64,000 nt of DNA from Rhizoclosmatium globosum (taxonomy: Eukaryota; Chytridiomycota; Chytridiomycetes; Chytridiales; Chytriomycetaceae): positions 62,001-126,000 of the forward strand of contig MCGO01000057.1 of the NCBI GenBank assembly GCA_002104985.1, given 5' to 3'. Positions 5,428 through 17,404 of the stretch are shown here, piece by piece. Positions within the stretch are counted from its first letter, which is position 1. Each line of letters starts with the position of its first letter. The notes beneath the pieces are model-generated. The model was given only the letters and a program-made list of their open reading frames with translations. It did no database searches and was not told the origin of the DNA. A program made the position numbers and the translations under genes.

Positions 5428-6547
5428 ATGAGCCAAACCCCGATTAAACGATGGCAAAGTATCAGTCAGCATTCCGTAAACAGTATCATCATGACAACTG
5501 AGCTCTGTCTTGGCAGAGTTGGCTTCCCGGTCCAATTCCTTGTTCCTTTTGTCGTGATTGCGTTTTTGTACATGATGTCACGGGTGAATGGAGCTACAGC
5601 TTTTTGGACACGTCCAAGAAATTGGCATGGATATGGTATATTGGCGTTATTGTCTTTTTCGTGTTGGTATTCTTTGTTGTTTGGGGAATCCATTGGAGCC
5701 GTGATCGTCGAAGAGAGCGGATTGGAATATCACCAAAAGTTCCCGCGACTGAGAATGATATGGAATGCAAATCAATAGAAAAGATTTGGAAATCAATTGG
5801 AATCATTTCAAAAAAACACTCTCAGATGGGCAACTCTCCAAGCAGCAACTACGTCCCACCAGTCCGTACGCCAAAAGACCCAAACGCCCAAGTTGCAACG
5901 CTTGGCGCCGGCTGTTTCTGGGGCGTTGAAAAGTCGTTCCGAAAGAAATTCGGGGACAAGATCCAGAACGTTCGAGTTGGATACTCAGGTGGTTCAAAGG
6001 ACTCCCCAAGCTACCGCCAAGTCTGTAACGGGTGCGTCGTATCTACATTCTTCGATATCTTTCTAACTTGAACTGCGTTTAGTGACACGATGCACGCGGA
6101 AGTGGTCAACTTTGAATACATTGAATCAGAGCTGCCATATGAGACAATCCTCGACTTCTTCTTCAGATCGCATGACCCAACCACAAAGAATCGACAGGGT
6201 ATGTTGTAACTGATGTTGCTGATTATGAATGATTTGAAATCTCAACAGGAAACGACAGTGGAACACAGTACCGATCGGCCATTTTCTACCACTCTGAAGA
6301 GCAGAAGGCGATTGCCGAGCAAGTTATCAAGCGCGTGCAGCCAGCATTTGGGAATCACAACATTGCTACTACTTTGGAGCCATTCCGCAAGTTTTGGGAT
6401 GGCGAAGAATACCACCAAGATTATTTGGCCAAGAACCCACATGGATACGAATGCGCTACACACTTTGAACGAACGTGGGCTCGAGTTGCGGCGCAATGGG
6501 GAGGTGTCGATATTTCGGCCCAAACGGGAAAGGGAAATGAGTTGTGA
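5428..6547 (+). CDS. msrA: Peptide methionine (S)-S-oxide reductase A, copy 2, possibly membrane-anchored
   Basis: The MsrA core is coded by exons ending at 6031 and covering 6083-6198 and 6249-6547, all in frame, with GCFWG, RVGYSGG, the MHAEVV stretch and DGEEYHQDYL. Starting at ATG 5826 the protein is 206 residues. Upstream of 5826 the same frame stays open to 5517 and codes a strong hydrophobic helix (LAWIWYIGVIVFFVLVFFVV) followed by RDRRRER. A GTAAAC...GGCAG intron (5476-5516) joins this in frame to ATG 5428 (MSQTPIKRWQ). The gene may therefore make a membrane-anchored MsrA of about 325 residues; I give that longer model but the 5826 start is a real alternative. It is divergent from copy 1. 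Confidence 0.82.
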
Positions 6548-6694
6548 TAATATTGAGAAATTGAGAATAACAGCGTCTTTTACTTTCTACATTCCATAAT
6601 GGAACTGAACATAATTGTTGATCAAACAGAAATCAAATACCTAGCGCCCAACACCCCTCCTTCCTCCCCATTACCAGTCGTAAACGAAACCTAT

Positions 6695-8325
6695 TTAAGC
6701 CAAAACCCTCATAGTGGCCTCGTAAGCCATGAAAGTGAAACCATTGACTGGTCCGGCACGGAGCATACAAGTGACGAAACCTCTGTAGAAACCCATGACA
6801 CCCTCAGCAGCCAACACTTTCTTGACACAGTCAGCAACACCCTTGTACTTTCTGTCAGCAACTTCGAAGCTATCCGTCTGAATCTTTGACTTGATGGCAT
6901 CCTATTTCCAAAGAATAAGTAAGAATCAGGAGAACAGCTCCTTCCCCCCATAATAAAACTTACAATTGGGTACATGACAGTCCACAAAGTGTAACCACTG
7001 CAAGCACCAAACAAGCACTGCATCCATCCAGCAACATCACCTCTGTTCTGAGTCTTTTGAATCTTCATCTGTCTCTTCATCAAGGCTTCGTATGTCAAAA
7101 AGTAGATTCCGTATCCACCAAACTCTCTGACCAATGTGATTCCTTGACCCTTGTAGATACCAGCGAGACCGTATTTTCCGTACACACGCTTGAAAAAGTC
7201 GATGGGTCCGGCGTAGGCACCTGCGGCACCGCTACGGGCCTGGATTTGGAGTCTGCTACGGACGTGCTCGATGGGGCCGGAGAGGACACTGTTGGCTACA
7301 CCTGAAGCACTTCCGGAGAGGAACAGTTGGGCGTAGGAGAGGTCGGTTGGGTTGTGCTGGTTGCGGGAGGCATTTTGGGCAATGAAGTATCGCTTGGCGG
7401 ATTCAAGGGCTGAGAATTGGATGGAGACACAGGCTCCAATTCCGATAAGGGGGGTTAAAGCGCCCTAAAAAAGGGATGGACAATAAGTAAAATTATTAGA
7501 ATGAAGTTTCGGTGATGGGTTTTTGAGGTTTCGTTCAACGCAACCACTTTTTTCTTCCGTAATGCGAAACAGGCTTGCCCTTCCCTCATTGCATTCCTCT
7601 CTTCCCGCACAGATACACAACAACAAAATAAAAGAAGCACAAGGATACCTTGTAGAAGCCCTTAAAACCTTCGTTCTTCAACGTCTTCTTGACACAGTCG
7701 ACCATTGAGCTGTACTGGTCTGGCTGTGTTTGCAGACGGACTTTGACGGTATCGAATGGCTGACCAGTCATGACCTAGAAATTGGACCTGGTTAGCGTAC
7801 GATGGTTCGGGCACTTTCGGGTAGTTGACGCTCAAGCAATTGTCTGTTATCGGCGGCATCCGAGGACACCCGACATCCAATCAGATCAGCACTCCCTTCC
7901 TTTCTCAGTCAAACCAACTGGCTGCGATCCCGATTCCCGATATCATAATGCGATAGTGCCAGATCAGGTGCATTTGGTGGTGTCACTGGTGTGTTGAGGG
8001 TGAATTGATAAAGCCACAAATAGGTTCGCATTGTCCTTCACAGCAACGATGCCCTGGCTGCCTTTCAAGTGTGGGTGGGTCAAAGTACCTGCACAATTCC
8101 TCCGACGCATCCAGCGAACTAGTTGGTTGTTTGGTTGTTTGGTTGTTTGGCAGCAGTGGGTGATTGATGGTAAGGTTGAGGGTGCGAATCGACAGATTGG
8201 TTGTTTGGAGAGCAGGTCGGCATGAGGGGTAATGGTAATAAACATTGACAGTTAGAAGACATTATTTGAATCAAATGAAGCGTTGGTACCGATTCCTTCA
8301 GAGCCTGGTTGTCTCCCTTTGCCAT
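6695..8325 (-). CDS. YMC1: Mitochondrial carrier (SLC25), YMC1/YMC2-type
   Basis: Inner-membrane solute carrier. Exons: 8290-8325, 8089-8118, 7649-7774, 6964-7464 and 6695-6901; joins keep frame and give 300 residues, the family norm. Three repeats carry Px[DE]xx[KR] signatures: [24 protein letters not shown] and [11 protein letters not shown]. Helix 1 ([10 protein letters not shown]) sits alone in a 30-nt micro-exon between CTAG and GTAC. The set [21 protein letters not shown]-like and [10 protein letters not shown] matches fungal Ymc1-like members of the carnitine/basic amino acid carrier branch; the exact substrate cannot be read from sequence. The first intron contains repeated GGTTGTTT units. 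The coding end is 148 bp from the msrA stop, convergent. Confidence 0.92.
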
Positions 8326-8559
8326 TGGTTGCTTTTCTTTTTTTGGAAGTCAAAATTGTTACCTCTTTCTTCTTGTTTTCCTTAGCGATAGTTTTTGCAA
8401 GAAATGATACTGTATTTAACATTTTAGAAGAACATTAAAAAAAAACAAAAGGTAAAAGAAAAAAACATACCTGTAAAAAATAATTAGAATTATGCCATAA
8501 GGAAAGCAAGGCCATACCAAATTTCTTTGTATTGTTAATCAGGAATGTATCCAGGGCTG
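8326..8559 (-). other. Region 3' of the Fanzor gene, candidate guide-RNA locus
   Basis: This 234-bp gap lies between the Fanzor stop codon and the start of the carrier gene, both on the minus strand. It is A/T-rich with A and T runs and must contain the Fanzor 3' UTR and the carrier promoter. In studied Fanzor and TnpB loci the guide RNA (fRNA/omega RNA) comes from the 3' end of the nuclease gene, so this is where one would look. I do not see a convincing stable hairpin by eye; the nearest is a GCC...GGC pairing around 8493-8512. The function is inferred only from position. Confidence 0.25.
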
Positions 8560-11500
8560 TTAAATGAAAGCTGCAGGTCGACCACCAGTATGATTGTAAT
8601 GAAACAGCAAGTGGCGAATGTTGCATGCAGCTTGAATATCTTTGTCCACAATCTTAGCAACAAATGTTAGTGCTGGTACCAGTCACAAGCATACATACAG
8701 TAGGGGGTCCTGGAATGAGTGGGCACTCAACAAGACCATAAACTGAACTCTGGATGTTAGTAAGATCAGGGCATTGAACAAAGGGATGCATTGGTTGTTT
8801 GTCATCATCAATGCAGTATTTTCTCCAGTGAAGATCCTGAAACTTGCGTTTCTTGTGGGGGCATCTAAGAATAGGACGTCGAACCTAGTCCAACATTAAT
8901 GTAAGACTTACTTTGTTGATTACTTACTGTCACAACTGGTGGATATTGGAACACACCTCCTGCCTCATAGCCAGCACTGAGACGATGGGACCGCTGTGAA
9001 GTCAAATGCTCATCAATAACAAACACAAAGTGCTCATGAGCAGCCTTTTCTCTGATTCTCTGTGTGAAAAACACATATTTAGTATTGCCAACCATTGCGT
9101 TAAACTGACATTGTTGGGAACAGGTGCCCATGGTCTCTGGTGATTCCAAGATCCATCGCCATAAGCAAAATAGACTGGTGCAACAGGAAAAGCTGGAATA
9201 TTATTCAAGCGGCGTGTTCGACGGCGGAGTTTTCTTGCTCCAGGAACAATCCTGCCTTGCATACTGTTCCAATCAGTGTCTGTCATGCGCCCAGCCATAC
9301 GATTGATGAGAGCTTGTTCAGCCCGCTGGTGTTTCATACGACTGCTCTGCTTCCACTTTAGATGCTGGGGACGAGAATACTCTTGCAACAAGAATTCTGA
9401 CTGGAAATGCTTGACCATCCAGGTCCATTGACACCAATGACCCAGTGTACGTTGACCAATAACACGTGGAGAATTTTGAGCAAGGACATCATATGCAAAG
9501 TTGATGCGGTGATCATTGTCTCGGAACACCTCTTCCCTCTTTTCAGAGAGCTTAGAACCATTGATTTGACACATATGACCATGGGAAACCTGAACAACGT
9601 GGTCATGAATAATTTGTCGTGATGGAGGATGTGCAGGCGGAGGTACTGGAACTGGAGCAACAGCAGCATTGTTGATTTGGAGCTGGATATCACTATTGAC
9701 ACAAGTTACAACATTCCTGATACCTAAATAGGTAAAATAAATATTAGAAGCTGATTTAGTAAGCCAAACACAGAAATCAAACCTGGGTCAACACTAATAA
9801 CATTGTGAGGATCCAAGATTCCAGCTTGAATTTGATTCACAATTCCCATATTGTTTATGTGATGATCCACACGCACCATTCCACGACCATTTATCATGAA
9901 TTGGTTATAGTTATAATTTTGTGGGAGTGAATTTGCATCATCAGTCCAACTTTTGTGAGGAACTCTGTTGGCATTTGCTGCAAGATTGTTCTGAACAAAG
10001 GCTTGTCTGGTATTCAGAGTCCATGAAAAGCTTCTGCCATCAGTTTGAAGATAATATGAAGCTAGGGCCCTTTAGAATTATTCAATGCAATAAAGTTTTA
10101 CATACAATCAACATCATTCCTCAAGTGGCGACTCCAGCGAACAGATTCAACTCGAAAAAACAGTCCAATTATGCCACGATGTTCAGCTCGAGTCCCTCCA
10201 TGACCATTGTATCTTCCAACCCCATTTGGTGGACTAATTATTCCCAATGCAGGTACAATGATGTGCTGGAAATGTGCAGCAGCAGCTACAAGTGAAGGTG
10301 GAAAGTTAACTCCACCTGGTGGTTGAGGAAGTGGAACAGCAAGTGGCCCCAAAAGGTCCCTCAGTCGTGGCATAAAATATTGACATAGAACACGATAGTC
10401 TATCCCACAAAAGACTGCTTGAGCCGTGGTAGCATTGGTTGGAAGTGGTGCAAGAGGAAAATAAGCTTCACTTCCAAGGAGTGCCATATCTGGGCGAATA
10501 AAACTGTTTCAATGGTAGTATGTTTGAAATTAGCAAATGAAGGCTTGACAGATAAAAACTTACTCTCTGGTATAAGCCAAAATATTATTGCCCATTCTTG
10601 ACATTGCCCTAATAAGATTCATTTCAAAGTGTGGGCCACGCTGAATGTTATTGAAGGGCATGGCAACAAGAAACTGTCTGTGATGGAGAAGAAATGCAAC
10701 AATATTGTTGGTCACTGCCTGTGGAACTGCTACAGGAAGTGCAAGTGGGGCACCAAATGGTGGGGTCAGGTAATTGTATATTGCTGTCTTTGCAGTTGCC
10801 TTGATAACAGCGGTAGGTTGGTATCCATGCAGGAAGCAATGAAAGTTGAAAACCTGAATTATGTTGTAAGATTTAAAGTAAATTTCAGACAAGATCAACA
10901 AACCTCCTCAGCCAGCTTGCCTAAATTGGCAATGAATCTGCGAGCAAGTGCATTTTCAAAGTCTGTACGCAATCGTTTGGCTTCAATGGCAATAACTTGC
11001 TCCCATTCATAGCTGGGACAGTTAAAGAGGGGAACCATTCGAAGACCAGGTTGGATGGGTTGTCCATTCTGAAAACCATTGTTGTCACAACTAAATGGAT
11101 GATGAAAGTTTTGGAAAGTTTCCAACAAGTAATGTCTTGTGACAGAACGGCGGGTGTTTTGGTGTGCCTGAAGGGCTGCACCAACTGGAAGGATGTAGGG
11201 TGTGCCAACAGGATTGCCAGGAAGTACAAAACCAATTGGAAGTGGGGCATGATAATTATTGGCGAGCAGATTTCCAGAAGCATACTTGAGTGCAAATTGG
11301 AAGAAGGATTCTGAAAACTCAATGTCAAGATGATCGTGACCTAATTTTAAGTCCCAATGAATTTAAACGATATTAATTTGAGCTGTTAAATACCAGTTGG
11401 GTTGCGCTCTAGGTGAAGGTTGATTGCAAGCATGGCATCGGAGCGTAGGAGGGACACATTTCTTGCAAACTCTTGTAAGAGTGGCCCCATTACACAACGT

Positions 11501-11625
11501 AGTTCTGGTCGAGTAGCTTGTCTTGCTCCAACATGGCGAGTGCGATGGAAGTTGTTTTGAGCCATATGAATGACAGAAGTGGCGACCAAAAGAATGAGAA
11601 GAATAGATAGGAGGCAAGGCCTCAT
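8560..11625 (-). CDS. Fz: Fanzor (eukaryotic TnpB-like RNA-guided nuclease)
   Basis: Nine exons: 11394-11625, 10904-11340, 10564-10853, 10106-10503, 9783-10061, 9110-9723, 8928-9059, 8699-8884 and 8560-8652. They total 2661 nt without a frame break, giving 886 residues (866 if M21, MAQNNF, is used). RuvC motif I is ISVDPGIRN (D544), with VDPG split by an intron. Motif II is VFVIDEHLTSQ (E767), preceded by the GDGSW box usual before it in Fanzors. Motif III is IVDKDIQAACNIRHL (D861), matching the RD..A..NI end of TnpB/Fanzor. Between II and III lies the zinc-finger region, with RCPHKKRK, YC, QCP and ECP cysteines. In characterised members of this family a guide RNA directs DNA cleavage. No transposase is adjacent. 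The first 20 residues are hydrophobic, so M21 may be the true start. Eight introns of 43-60 nt suggest long residence in the host. Confidence 0.88.
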
Positions 11626-11744
11626 CAGTTGGCTCGTGTTTTTTTCTCGAATGCAATTTTCACACTGTTATCTTTTTTATCCGATCTCATTTTCCGTTGG
11701 GGTTTACCCGGAGTTTTTCCGGCTTTCTTCCTCTCAGCAACAGG

Positions 11745-11820
11745 ATCTGTACCAGGGGTCGAACCTAGAACCTCTTGATTCATAGTCGAGCTCGGTAACC
11801 ATTTGGCCATTCGCCCATGA
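11745..11820 (-). other. tRNA-like sequence (tRNA pseudogene or SINE head)
   Basis: On the minus strand there is an A-box-like TGGCCAAATGG and, about 40 nt on, a B-box GGTTCGACCCC flanked by a pairing T-stem (CTAGG/CCTGG). An anticodon-like arm (CTCGA-loop-TCAAG) sits between. The acceptor ends do not pair and the D-stem is poor, so this is not a good functional tRNA. It could be a tRNA pseudogene or a tRNA-derived SINE fragment. It lies about 120 bp upstream of the Fanzor start, same strand. The downstream 120 nt are A-rich and purine-rich. Confidence 0.5.
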
Positions 11821-11890
11821 CATATGACATGTGGTCAAGATCGGCAAAGAAAAACCGAAGATGAATGTTCTTCGTCTCTGAAAATAATAG

Positions 11891-12032
11891 TAGGTTAATC
11901 ATCGAGATCAATGGGCCATTGTTGCTTCACTCACCAATCAGATTGAATTCTTCAAAACTTTGATAGGTTAATCATCCAGATCAATGGGCCATTGTTGCTT
12001 CACTCACCAATCAGATTGAATTCTTCAAAACT
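11891..12032. repeat. Tandem duplication, about 70 bp, period 73
   Basis: Two copies starting TAGGTTAATCATC at 11891 and 11964 run almost identically through GGGCCATTGTTGCTTCACTC and GATTGAATTCTTCAAAACTT. One clear mismatch (CGAG/CCAG) is seen near the start. It lies in the intergenic space between the Fanzor gene and the next plus-strand gene. It is a recent local duplication; no function is visible. Confidence 0.9.
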
Positions 12033-12310
12033 TGACTCTCAATCTGGCAGTCCCTTGTTACTTGAGAGAAACCAGTTTATATCATTGAATACCTTCTCAG
12101 TTACATTGTGAGTGTTTCCAAACCCCAATTTCCTTCAGGGTGGAGATTGTAATTGTTGTCGCGTCGCAGCCACCTTCACAATGGCGACCACACAATGGAG
12201 CCCCCTTAAGAGCTATTGTCTTTATAACCTTTGTCTTTTTCAAAGAATAGCATCTCACTCACGTCCATTATTCTCCCTTTAGCATCCAAAACACACGTTC
12301 GGCACACCAA

Positions 12311-13822
12311 ATGTCCCAATCTTCCACAATCCAGCAATTGCAACACCAAGAAGCCTTAGATTATGGAACATTATTCGAAGATAACCAAAAACAAGGTTAT
12401 ACCGAGCAGTCAAGTATGTCTGACCACTTTGAGGAAATGCTCGACGATATGAACCAGCGGTCGGCATCTCCCATGATGCACTCATTCTGTTCAGAATCCG
12501 GATCTCAAAATATCTTGAATATTCTGAATGACCCTCGCGCCATGATACCTCTTCCTCCTCATCACATGCCTCACCCAGTAACAATCGAAACAGCACCACC
12601 GTCATCGGATTATGAAGAAATTAAGGCATTCTTGCGTTGGAATTCGGAACCAGAGATTGATGGAGGATTCGAGTCTGTTGCAGAGAATTCGAGTAATCAA
12701 TCAGCAACAACTGGGCCGTCACTCGACTATGCATCTTCCATCTATACATCTTCCGGGAGCTCAAATAATTTAATGCCTTCCCCGCCCACAACTGCCACTT
12801 CACCGGCTGAAATTGCAGCGGTGCCAGTAGGGCTTAATCAAAATGCAAGTCAGATACAGTTTAGCTACGATCCTCATAGTTTAGCATTACAGCCAGAAGC
12901 ATATTTCGGTTTTACTGGTTACGAAGAGCCACGGTATTCAAGTACAGCGTTGCATGGTTTCGAGCTCATGACAGACCAGGCTTACTACGGATACAGCAAC
13001 CCAATAGCAACAACACCAAACTTTTCAAGTTCTTATTATCCTCTTTCTCAACAGCAGAATCAACAACTACCACTTTCGCATCACCAATCACAGCAATTCA
13101 ACCTACAGAACCAATCCAATTCCCTCAAACAACAGCAGCAACAGCAACAGCAAAATCAACAATCAAGCTTTACTGCATCGAAAGCATTTCGATGGGCAGC
13201 CGCAGCCGCCAGCGCAAACACCCCGACTTCTCATATCTCAATGAGTATGATTGTCCCACAACAACCCAACACCCAACAACTACAAAATTTAGACCATTTT
13301 TCAATGGACTCCACAACGCTAAACACACCCTCAACGCGATCTGGCTCCATCACCTTAACAACCACAACCACAACAGCCCAAAACCAAACAACAACAGCAC
13401 TCCACCAACCAACCCCATCCTCCACCTCTCAAAAATCAAAAAAACATTCACCCGATTCAACCCAACCCACAGGCCCACACAACCTCCGCAGCAGCAGTAG
13501 CACCAACAACAGCAACAGCAGCACAACCAACCAAACCCAACCCTTCAGCCCCTACAAAAAACCAATGAAACTCTCACCCCAAAACGCCACCTCGAAATCA
13601 CACGCCTCAAAACTCCTCAGCGCCGCGACAGCAGGAACCAGCGCGGGCAGCGCGTCCAAGATGGTCAAGATTGAGCATTTGGAGAGTCAACAGAAATGGT
13701 TTAAGGAGCAGGTGGAAATGCAGAGCCGTCGTGGTGCACCGGAGAGGGAGGGGATGATTGCGGCTTTGTTGAGGATTGCAGGGGGTGGTGTAGCTACTGG
13801 AAAGGATCAAGGGGAAAAGTGA
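12311..13822 (+). CDS. Low-complexity Gln/Asn/Ser/Thr-rich protein, unknown
   Basis: One uninterrupted frame of 503 codons from ATG 12311 to TGA. The N-terminal 100 residues are acidic and moderately ordered (EEMLDDMNQRS, NILNILNDPRAM). The middle is rich in Q, N, S and T with a polyQ run near residues 275-290. The last 60 residues are basic then helical (KMVKIEHLESQQKWFKEQVEMQ). No DNA-binding domain is seen; the composition resembles transcriptional co-regulators (inference only). I do not recognise the family. Confidence 0.75.
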   Translation: MSQSSTIQQLQHQEALDYGTLFEDNQKQGYTEQSSMSDHFEEMLDDMNQRSASPMMHSFCSESGSQNILNILNDPRAMIPLPPHHMPHPVTIETAPPSSDYEEIKAFLRWNSEPEIDGGFESVAENSSNQSATTGPSLDYASSIYTSSGSSNNLMPSPPTTATSPAEIAAVPVGLNQNASQIQFSYDPHSLALQPEAYFGFTGYEEPRYSSTALHGFELMTDQAYYGYSNPIATTPNFSSSYYPLSQQQNQQLPLSHHQSQQFNLQNQSNSLKQQQQQQQQNQQSSFTASKAFRWAAAAASANTPTSHISMSMIVPQQPNTQQLQNLDHFSMDSTTLNTPSTRSGSITLTTTTTTAQNQTTTALHQPTPSSTSQKSKKHSPDSTQPTGPHNLRSSSSTNNSNSSTTNQTQPFSPYKKPMKLSPQNATSKSHASKLLSAATAGTSAGSASKMVKIEHLESQQKWFKEQVEMQSRRGAPEREGMIAALLRIAGGGVATGKDQGEK

Positions 13823-14037
13823 TGCCCTTTTTTCCTTGGCGTGTTTGTGGGGGGTGAGGAATAATGCAAGGTTTACTATTTTGTTTTTTTGTGTGTTATT
13901 GGAAATATATTCGGAATATTATTTGTTGATGGCAGTGAGACCAAATATATTCACGCCCTACTCGCTTCGTGGTTCACCAAATTATTGTGACAAGAAGGAT
14001 ATTTATTCACGAACATAAGAAATGATACACAATCACA

Positions 14038-15659
14038 TCACTTTCTAGAACTATTCCGTGACAAACTCTGCCCACGTTGGGTACCCTGTCCTTGACCTTG
14101 CCCTTGCTCGTCAGACCTATACCCACTTCGTTGTTGTTGCTGCAAGTAACCAAACGAAGGAGACCCTCTATCCCCTGGACCACCACTTCCCAGTTCCCGA
14201 TACCGATTCTGGATCTGTTGTTGCATTTGAATCGGCATGGCATGTCTTTGAGGAGAATTTTGCTGTTGTTGTTGCTGTTGCTGTAGTTGTTGTTGTTGAA
14301 GTTGTTGTTGGTGGAGTGCTTTGAGACTGTTTGAACGACCCACTTCAGATCGACCCACTTCAGATCGACCGACACCGACTTCAGATCGATTCATATCAGG
14401 TTGAGTGGAGTCGTCAATGTAGTCAATGCCGCCTCCTTCAAAAGACTTTTTCCTGCGGAATTGAGGTGGAGTTGAATTCGGTCCACCTTTTTGATGTTGA
14501 GAGGAGTTTCCAGAGTTGGATGTTGAACGGGATATGTATGGAGCAGGGGATACCACTTCAAACTGGCGTGGATTGTACGAAGATGAGGAAGGGGCTGGAG
14601 AAAGGGGAGGATTTTGGGGCTGTGGTTGGAGGATCGAGTCTTCGTTGAGACTAGATATTGAGTTTCTGCGATCAGTGCTGAGGGAGGTGGATGGATCACC
14701 ACCTGCACTTGGTCTTCGTTGTTTCTGGGATGAGTTTGTACGTTTGGGCGTTTCGCGTGAAAGACTTCGAAAGCGAGGGGAGTTGGTTGCATTAAGTGGG
14801 GGAATTGGACTGGCTGAATTGACAGGTCCAGGTGATTTGCGGTAAATCGGTTGGTTGTGTTGCGGGTAGAAAGGCTGGGACTGTGAAGGCTGTTGGCGCA
14901 GTGGTTGTTGTTGAGGGTGTGAAAAGGGAGTCGAGGGTATTTTTGATTGAGAGGGAGCTGGATCGCCAGGCCTTCGCACCAGTGTTCTACTGCGTCTGTT
15001 TTGCGCACGTTTTCGAGCATCTGAAGCGAGATTGGGTGTTGCGGATTTGCCTATTAAAGTGTGGTTGTGCTAGGTCAATTAAGGCAGTCCCGTCAAAGCG
15101 CACGCACCAAGGTACTCGTCAGCAAGCATCAAAACCGCCTTTTCCCGCATTGCTTCAGAGGCATTTGGCTCGAGGGCGTCCACGGTCGATCCTGCGATTG
15201 CCATTGCAAGTGCCCGTTCGATGCGCTCGGTGCGCTCAGACGGCTGCACTCCGCTGCCAGCATTGATTGTTGATTGGTTGTTGATTGGTTGTTGGTTGTT
15301 GGATTAGATTGGCGTAGGAGGTTGTTGGTGGAGCAGGAAGAGAACAAACCAACCTCAGCTCAAGAAAGCCCAGACCCGCAACAGTCGCAGCCTCAAAACA
15401 CAAGTGCGGCGGCCTTCGTTTGTTTTCGATGGTTTAATTGATTTAATAATGTGAGAGACCCTAACCTTCCCCGCATCGCCCACCGGCCCCACCGAGCAAG
15501 CACTTCCCCCGCGTACTCGTCAAGCCAGGGCTCGCGCTCTCGCTCAAACGCACTAAACAACGACACAAAGTCCGCGTGTACATCCGTGAAGTAGCCATCG
15601 CCAACAGGAAGTCCGCTGCGCTTCGACGCATCAAACCGTCGATATTGTGTGCTAGTCAT
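14038..15659 (-). CDS. Low-complexity protein with helical N-terminal region, unknown
   Basis: Exons: 15466-15659, 15354-15391 (38 nt), 15108-15253 and 14038-15050. The N-terminal region (MTSTQYRRFDASKRSG...; GDAGKAATVAGLGFLEL; VQPSERTERIERALAMAIAG; MREKAVLMLADEYLG) looks like a helical domain. The rest is Pro/Ser/Gln-rich, with a tandem GRSEVGRSEVG repeat at about 14330-14380 and a polyQ tract at 14260-14310. Exons 2-4 join cleanly. Exon 1 joins to exon 2 only if one base is restored in the GGGGCCGG run near 15485, so an assembly indel or pseudogenisation is possible. I do not recognise the family. Confidence 0.65.
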
Positions 15660-15812
15660 CTTTTTTAGTAGAAAATTAAACAATTAAATTGGGGAAGAAA
15701 ATAGAAAAAAAAAAATAGAATAAAAACCGAGGAAACCAGTTTGGGTGCATTCAGACAAACCTCATGGTTCATCTTTGGTCCATCTCATTCGATTCTTTAT
15801 TTTGACAACCAA

Positions 15813-17404
15813 TTAATATCTCCCGATAACTTTATCAAACACTTTGACGACAAGTGGACTCACGTTTGCAGGTTCATTTTGGTACATTCCCATCAACACA
15901 GCCATACTCAAACAGCAGAGCGCAGTTTCACTTCCTGGGATATGGCATACCCATTTCCGCCGTTGACATACCAAAAAGAGACTCTGTAGGCCTTTTGGAA
16001 GTACATACATGGCCAATTCAGCACGCCTTCCTTTCTTTTCAATCAAGATGGAGAGACCGGAAGCGAGACATCCGAGAAGATAATAGAAGATTTTGTAATC
16101 TTTTTGCAGTATACGCTGACGAACCAAGTTCCGGACAAGACATATTCCGGTCATATAGATTCCCACATACGAGGACAAGAAAGTGGAAGACACAATCGTG
16201 TTCCAGACACCACGAGTGACGGAGTCCAGAGGTGTGTTGAGAAACTTTCGAGGACGGAGGAGGAGCATGGGAACGAAATTCAAGGCAGCGTAGACAGGAG
16301 CGATTGAACGAAATATTTTTGGAAAGAGAGCAAGGTTGTAGGATTGGCAGCTCGTGTTGGAAGGGTGGATTGCTTCACAGGGAACGATGGGGAGGATTCC
16401 TTGGGATGAGACATTTTTCGTATAGTACTCAGTAGCAGATTGAATAGTCTCATTCACTGTGTTTGTGGGAGCGTATTTTTGTATGCATGATGTCATGGCA
16501 GCGAGTGTTATTGGAGGTATCGACGATGATTCGGAGGCACGGTGGTTTTGCCGATTGAGGGCAAGGGATTCACGAGGGACACGTGCTGTTTTGGAGTGAC
16601 ATAAGCGATACAGTGCGAGCCATTAACATTAAAACTACCTGTTTTCACGATCCAGTTCAAGTATTCCGGCGGAATTGTGTCTGGTTGCATGACATACGCG
16701 TACATGATGCTTCCACAGGCGATTGAGAACAAAAGCGAGTCTCCATGGGTGAATGAAAAGAGATTCCTTGCTTCCAGACCATTATAAATGGCTTGTAGAC
16801 CACGAATTCCAAACTGTTGCAACACAACCACACGATTCTCATATGTCTCAAACAGCACCGAGAATCCGCCTACAAACCCGCCAGCAAATGCGCACAATCG
16901 CTGATCACTGAACAGGCCCTTGAATCTGAGGTAATTCGACACTAATTTGAAGACAGCGGCAAAGCAGCCGACCATGTTGGCAAAGCGGTATACAGTGCGT
17001 GACATGAACAGTTCTTTCAGAGTCGACGAGAGGGACGCCTTCTTCTTTGCGACTTTGAGAAGAGAGACGAGGAAGAAGACGCCGCCTCGAAGCCCAAACG
17101 ACGTGGCCCACGACTTTGCACCGCCAACGAGCGAATACAAAAGAATGTCTGAGAAGGATTTGAAGGTTGGCGGCTGCGTGGCGGTAGCTGCCTCGCTTTG
17201 GGGCCGGATTCCATCGCCATTCACAACATTCGAATTCGCATTCGCATTCGCATTCGCCGGGACTTGCTCCACTTTCTTGTCAGTGTCTTCGCTGACCTTC
17301 TCCTCGGTTTCGGGTGCGAGGTCTGGCTCAAACTCAGCCAGAGTTGCCATCGAGCTGCTTGCTGAAGATGTCGTGGCAAGTTTTGGAGAGGTGGGCTGAT
17401 GCAT
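15813..17404 (-). CDS. TMEM135: TMEM135-like multi-pass membrane protein
   Basis: Exons 16639-17404 and 15813-16585, joined by a 53-nt intron at a phase that restores WIVKTARVPRESLALNR; 512 residues. After an acidic, Asn/Ala-repeat N-terminus there are several hydrophobic helices arranged as two halves of Tim17-like type: FGLRGGVFFLVSLLKVA, ANMVGCFAAVF, CAFAGGFVGGFSVLFE in the first, and VGIYMTGICLVRNLV, YYLLGCLASGLSILIEKKGRR, CCLSMAVLMGMYQNEP in the second. Conserved landmarks (E..KGRR.ELAMYVLPKGLQS, IPPEYLNWI) match TMEM135, linked in animals to peroxisomes, mitochondria and lipid handling. The fungal role is inferred. Confidence 0.8.

Follow-up and report, generated by a model that had tools for sequence, protein, structure and literature searches.

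We analysed 64,000 nucleotides of the genome of the chytrid Rhizoclosmatium globosum (GenBank assembly GCA_002104985.1, contig MCGO01000057.1, positions 62,001 to 126,000 of the forward strand), hereafter the window, and found that a spliced gene on its minus strand (8560..11625 in window coordinates) is the cargo of a recently multiplied mobile element. The encoded protein is probably a highly divergent Fanzor1 residing on a short inverted-repeat element that has recently multiplied in this chytrid, where it would act as an RNA-guided retention factor. Fanzors are eukaryotic relatives of TnpB and of the RNA-guided DNA cutters of the CRISPR type. The gene structure, the homology of the RuvC part of the protein to Fanzor1, the mobility of the element, its ends, the CCTA target with a TA duplication and the existence of ghost elements are directly supported by the data. 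The original prediction for this locus, made from the letters of the window alone, had proposed an intact multi-intron gene for a Fanzor/TnpB RuvC nuclease, which is supported by the exon model and by alignments to Fanzor1 profiles. It had also suggested that the gene might stand alone or be domesticated. This is contradicted by the multi-copy family, the inverted repeats, the TA duplication and the empty sites, and on the copies, ends and empty sites we rejected a domesticated single gene.

Gene, copies and insertion sites of the element

The gene runs from 11625 to 8560 and its nine exons are joined in frame by eight GT..AG introns of 43-60 nt each, giving a coding sequence of 2661 nt including the stop, that is 886 codons followed by TAA. 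Exons 1 to 4 (11394..11625, 10904..11340, 10564..10853 and 10106..10503, all on the minus strand, as is every feature located below unless stated otherwise) are followed by exon 5 (9783..10061), which carries RuvC I up to VDPG, and by exon 6 (9110..9723) with the GDGSW box. RuvC II (IDEHLTS) lies in exon 7 (8928..9059), exon 8 (8699..8884) occupies the position of the zinc ribbon of other Fanzors and has no CxxC here, and exon 9 (8560..8652) encodes RuvC III (VDKDIQAACNI) and the C-terminal GGRPAAFI. Both the joining of nine exons to 886 codons without a frame break and the succession of VDPG, GDGSW, IDEHLTS and VDKDIQAACNI with all three catalytic acids (D544, E767 and D861), as originally predicted, were borne out. 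The same 886-codon frame with all eight GT-AG introns is kept in 13 of 18 copies, the window copy included, which goes beyond chance. Furthermore, the public protein P0001 (hypothetical protein BCR33DRAFT_848342 of R. globosum, 783 amino acids) is the product of an internally deleted copy (c17) and is identical to the window protein at 743 of its first 745 residues, spanning the joins of exons 1-6. The exon 6/7 join is spanned by the Fanzor profile alignment described below and the exon 5/6 join by a separate, weaker piece. Met21 (MAQNNF...) is an alternative start of the open reading frame (ORF) and may be the true one; residues 1-20 are hydrophobic. The first 20 codons (MRPCLLSILLILLVATSVIH, 11566-11625) resemble a signal peptide.

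Similarity among young copies stops at about 8408 and about 11889-11897, 18 copies were aligned, and the whole element, including the flanking TA duplication and the 5' CC, was placed at 8408..11894. In gene orientation it reads 5' CC-TA-CTATTATTTT ... AAATACAG-TA 3' and measures 3.49 kb. The other 17 copies are 99.63-99.88% identical to that of the window, gaps aside. Among the copies departing from the intact frame, c12 has its frame preserved and a deletion that touches an intron acceptor, c16 has a 6-base in-frame deletion, c4 a stop at codon 425, c13 a frameshift and c17 a large deletion. Older broken copies of roughly 81-97% identity are also present; the counts on 18 copies leave out old, rearranged and partial ones (L020-L022, L031-L035, L054, L059, L061-L065). 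The genome was searched exon by exon, which gave 126 matches and a lower bound on the number of copies. In line with the original prediction of a gene with no neighbouring transposase, none was found by Pfam scan among the 19 other ORFs overlapping the element, none of which gave a match at the curated cut-off. A serine recombinase TnpA, the mark of Fanzor2/IS607, was likewise not found among these 19 ORFs, no spliced second gene having been modelled. The left end of the C367 copy (L079, C367:122500-123300) is longer by about 220 bp of additional DNA, flanked on either side by ACATGTCATG.

The ends of the element are 30-nt inverted repeats, TACTATTATTTTCAGAGACGAAGAACATTC at the left (11863..11892) and, read on the plus strand, TACTGTATTTAACATTTTAGAAGAACATTA at the right (8408..8437). 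They are identical at 19 of 30 positions without gaps, a value reached by 0 of 20000 internal control pairs. CCTA stands at the 5' junction (11891..11894) in 17 of the 18 copies and in two empty sites, while in the window as a whole CC precedes 172 of 5192 TA sites. The empty sites (L101, L102) were found by searching for the joined flanks. The one on contig C170, corresponding to the filled site of the C399 copy, reads ...AGTCCGCCTA up to the junction and ATCTGAGG beyond it, and the two are collinear over 865 + 736 bases with 99.7% and 98.1% identity. The one on C290, corresponding to the C174 copy, reads ...TACTACCTA followed by CTAAG and is collinear with the filled site over 147 + 708 bases (93.9% and 98.9%). 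The empty sites thus indicate that CCTA pre-existed in the target and that one TA became two on insertion. Our first reading of the flanks, insertion without target duplication, was overturned by the same sites, with one TA before and two after. For the C24 copy, a possible empty site on C169 has a deletion around the insertion point and was uninformative. The host flank of the window copy contains a 73-bp tandem duplication (11891-11960 and 11964-12033), which ends exactly at the CCTA junction of the element. Its second unit also has CCTA, and the duplication may be a repair product of insertion or of cutting.

In addition to full copies, the genome contains three ghosts of 831-838 bp without an ORF (C157, C235 and C391), which share only their last ~200 bp with the element and start with CCTACTGT. 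A related family, with elements of about 620 bp, is similar to the remainder of the ghosts and was found at five places. At its left end (L095-L098; C221, C63, C1, C2) TTTA was present in all four cases examined, which suggests a different target motif.

Relationship of the protein to Fanzor1

Single-sequence searches did not place the window protein. The Pfam scan returned OrfB_IS605 alone, over the RuvC I stretch and not significant (E 0.79), and the NCBIfam scan gave no match. A phmmer search of the PDB with the last 308 residues found nothing. Two word-seeded searches of 5.8 billion proteins, in which 7998 and 2532 candidates were scored (in the former only those sharing most words), had P0001 as their sole match. 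For profile comparison, Fanzors were gathered with a probe sequence, giving 657 matches among 860 candidates. The main Fanzor1 profile was composed of 11 sequences, eight of them from the 120 of 657 matches that were listed and three being stretches of solved Fanzor1 proteins; one member, P0037, matches the solved PpFz1, GtFz1 and SpuFz1 at E 1e-26 to 1e-27. With hhalign, residues 657-885 of the single window protein aligned to this profile with a score of 43.0 and P 2e-4, while the best of 100 shuffles scored 25.9 and the reversed sequence 15.3. A second comparison with six sequences gave P 6.4e-5, and when the host's own Fanzor1 (described below) was added to the profile the score rose to 52.4, with P 1.2e-5 and 23.8 as the highest of 100 shuffled scores. 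A profile search against the Fanzor family was one of the checks the original prediction had proposed, and it found the family resemblance over residues 657-885 with P from 2e-4 to 1.2e-5. The alignments comprise 148-149 columns at 22-23% identity and take in the GDGSW box, IDExxTS with E767, D861 and the C-terminal RPxxF. A separate piece (residues 430-660) aligned NVISVDPGIRNVV with the Fanzor RuvC I, with a score of 27.7 against a best of 24.5 in 100 shuffles. One-against-one BLASTP of the window protein and the host Fanzor1 gave E 0.002 without composition correction. Thus the sequence evidence for membership in Fanzor1/TnpB is good for the RuvC half of the protein and absent for the N-terminal half. 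Two genomic pattern matches (L083, L084) were dropped as they had no Fanzor context, and the pattern DE[FY]RTSK had 0 matches in viral contigs.

The catalytic residues, counted from the exon model, are the RuvC I Asp of VDPG at codon D544 (9787..9789), the RuvC II Glu of IDEHLTS at E767 (9009..9011), in the alternative position typical of Fanzors, and the RuvC III Asp at D861 (8638..8640), in a KD instead of an RD pair. The GDGSW box comprises residues 734-738 and K860-D861 lies inside VDKDIQAACNI. E767 aligns with the RuvC II Glu of SpuFz1 (LLDEYKTS). The Fanzor fingerprint has been described as DPG together with a Glu in the alternative position, which lies six residues ahead of the ribbon, in a paper that also reports a zinc finger in "many" TnpBs and Fanzors (PMC10711439). 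DPG is present in the window protein as D544-P-G, aligned in the weaker-signal piece search, and the protein agrees with the fingerprint to the extent that this is legible in the absence of the finger; because the zinc ribbon is missing, the spacing from E767 to the ribbon is unreadable. The family motif D-X(125,275)-[TS]-[TS]-XX-[C4 zinc finger]-X(5,50)-RD was called strictly conserved (Bao and Jurka 2013, PMC3627910). Between D544 and T770-S771 of the window protein there are 225 residues, which agrees with the first part of this motif; the C4 finger is not there. On these sequence features we regard the protein as a putative highly divergent Fanzor1 that lacks the C4 zinc ribbon and has KD for RD.

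The closest known parallel is SpuFz1 of the chytrid Spizellomyces punctatus. According to its description, this element has inverted repeats of about 30 nt, two conserved bases (CA) preceding the left repeat, and a measured target-adjacent motif (TAM) of CATA; Spu-1 elements occupy 42 loci, 19 of them full-length and about 82% identical, ghosts share the right end, and no transposase was found within the repeats (PMC10432273). The window element likewise has a single Fanzor gene between 30-nt inverted repeats, many copies, ghosts and no transposase found, and the RuvC E and D as well as the C-terminal RPxxF of the two proteins align. It differs from SpuFz1 in that the gene has 886 codons and 8 introns and encodes no C4 zinc ribbon and KD for RD, in CC instead of CA before TA, and in an N-terminal part of 440 residues that is unrecognisable; phmmer gave no match between the window protein and SpuFz1. 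Two other solved Fanzor1 proteins, PpFz1 of Parasitella parasitica (9cf0) and GtFz1 of Guillardia theta (9cer), belong to the profile that matches the window protein and keep Cys pairs in the compared stretches, whereas the window protein has no CxxC. Bao and Jurka (2013, PMC3627910) described Fanzor1 ORFs captured as cargo by diverse eukaryotic DNA transposons, some with target site duplications and without a transposase. The window gene resembles these as a Fanzor ORF carried by a DNA transposon, and its element, which we matched to no named superfamily, has a TA duplication and weak inverted repeats. We found no paper naming both Fanzor and Rhizoclosmatium, and the SpuFz1 paper alone joined Fanzor and chytrid, in a literature search that most subscription papers lie beyond, so that absence is unproven.

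A search of the genome with SpuFz1 gave a single match, a conventional Fanzor1 on contig C279 (C279:422088-422627, E 5e-18). By phmmer it matches SpuFz1 in the PDB (E 8e-18). The locus (L110, C279:420588-424127) contains an ORF at 1228-2433 on the plus strand with DPGKR, IDEFRTS and NRDKN intact and the CxxC pairs lost. This protein shares with that of the window the host, the RuvC D, E and D, a degenerate zinc ribbon and a weak direct match; it differs in having been found once in the genome and in being recognised as Fanzor1 by phmmer. It is a better candidate for domestication than the window gene.

Possible role of the protein and rival explanations

By analogy with studied relatives, the window protein may be an RNA-guided nuclease. 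CCTA at the left junctions and in the empty sites, together with the parallel to the CATA of SpuFz1, leads us to predict 5'-CCTA as its TAM. In the mechanism we propose, a transposase supplied in trans would move the element. An omega RNA would be read from the right end (position 8408) out into the neighbouring flank and guide the nuclease to CCTA plus flank sequence, that is, to the empty site. Once the empty site is cut, the element would be restored there by copying, a model put forward for TnpB, and would in this way be retained and spread. On a chromosome without the element, such an RNA would encounter what the empty sites show, CCTA followed by the start of the right flank, apart from the indel noted below. 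The candidate omega RNA scaffold is a non-coding region of 152 bp at the right end (8408..8559), which is common to the three ghosts. Compared with the rest of the element it is better kept in L054, an old copy (p 0.006), and in L055, the one ghost tested (p 0.009, in a comparison with only 50 bases).

Several observations weigh against the Fanzor1 reading and the role proposed with it. CxxC occurs nowhere in the 886 residues, so the C4 zinc ribbon between RuvC II and III is missing, the cysteines remaining in this region being Cys 802, 818, 832 and 848; since the host's C279 Fanzor1 also has no CxxC pairs, ribbon loss is not unique to the window family and may be tolerated. In RuvC III the pair K860-D861 retains the catalytic Asp and has a changed Arg. 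Residues 1-440 have no Fanzor1 similarity (44 of 100 shuffles scored equally high), the best phmmer match in the PDB is an unrelated hydrolase (E 0.049), and the AlphaFold2 model of P0001 was uninformative, with a mean predicted local distance difference test score of 31.7, and was not used further. Among 17 copies, with c17 omitted, 15 variants were nonsynonymous, a stop among them, against 8 that were synonymous, the neutral ratio being 3.39:1, so selection is not evident; because the variants are too few, we make no claim on selection for the young copies. The inverted repeats are imperfect and their gapped local score of 10 was equalled by 103 of 5000 internal pairs, copy c4 has no CCTA, and the right flanks of filled and empty sites agree for 3 bases and then show an indel of about 16 bases in one case, and for 5 bases followed by a 1-base indel in the other. 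The folding energy of the right end is no better than that of shuffles (z 0.25 and 0.96), and a special RNA structure there was discarded for want of a folding signal. Finally, conservation of the right end was not significant in L020 (p 0.09) and worse than that of the rest in L061 (p 0.005), which leaves the evidence from old copies mixed as a possible sign of RNA function. A search of the genome with the right-end consensus pattern gave 2 places and added nothing.

It is unlikely that the protein is a mere passenger, descended from a Fanzor but no longer active as a nuclease, and carried by a transposon that a foreign transposase moves. The loss of the CxxC ribbon, the KD pair and the want of clear purifying selection among young copies would suit such a descendant, as would the ghosts, which have spread without an ORF; but all three catalytic acids are kept, the 886-codon frame persists in 13 of 18 copies, and the loss of CxxC pairs also in the other Fanzor1 of the host suggests that it may be tolerated. 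We consider it still more improbable that the protein moves the element as its transposase, with DNA cutting and joining at the inverted repeats, and has no part in RNA-guided retention. It is the sole recognisable gene of the 3.49-kb element, the other 19 ORFs having no Pfam match at the cut-off, yet what homology can be recognised in it points to TnpB/Fanzor, proteins that are not known to transpose, and the TA duplication is suggestive of a DDE transposase.

Wrong exon joins or a pseudogene, with the motifs alike by chance, would be very improbable: although the joins rest on sequence and a single annotated relative, the frame and GT-AG sites are the same in 13 of 18 copies, the P0001 annotation agrees for exons 1-6 and the Fanzor profile aligns across joins. 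A domesticated host gene, which the intact and spliced ORF might recall, is the least credible of all given 18 near-identical copies at different sites, the inverted repeats, the TA duplication and the empty sites. The Fanzor1 reading may also be taken further, more tentatively and with some doubt on our part: the gene could represent a separate Fanzor lineage in which the zinc ribbon was lost and its region rebuilt with a different, insertion-bearing module, still RNA-guided and with a CCTA TAM, which would drive the element and its ORF-less ghosts through the chytrid population by cutting empty alleles beside the flank of the right end.

As the ordinary sequence searches made here miss the window protein, Fanzor surveys may have missed such lineages. 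Moreover, the gene is a natural test of the necessity of the zinc ribbon. At least two sites occur in the assembly both filled and empty, and with CCTA as a definite TAM prediction, whether a Fanzor aids the persistence of its transposon can be tested directly in a chytrid.

tRNA relic and neighbouring genes

Between the left end and the ORF lies a relic derived from tRNA-Arg(ACG) (11744..11816), which is recognisable in 18 of 18 copies and is also present in the older copy L107. It is 86-90% like other genomic matches, of which the three examined are tRNA-Arg according to ARAGORN. Its T-arm/B-box is altered or partly deleted in copies c3, c5 and c14. The relic could be an RNA polymerase III promoter or a chance capture. 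On either side of the element (5502-7774 and 12251-16622, seven ORFs scanned) the neighbours include a peptide methionine sulfoxide reductase, a mitochondrial carrier, a Q-rich protein and a TMEM135-like protein, and look ordinary.

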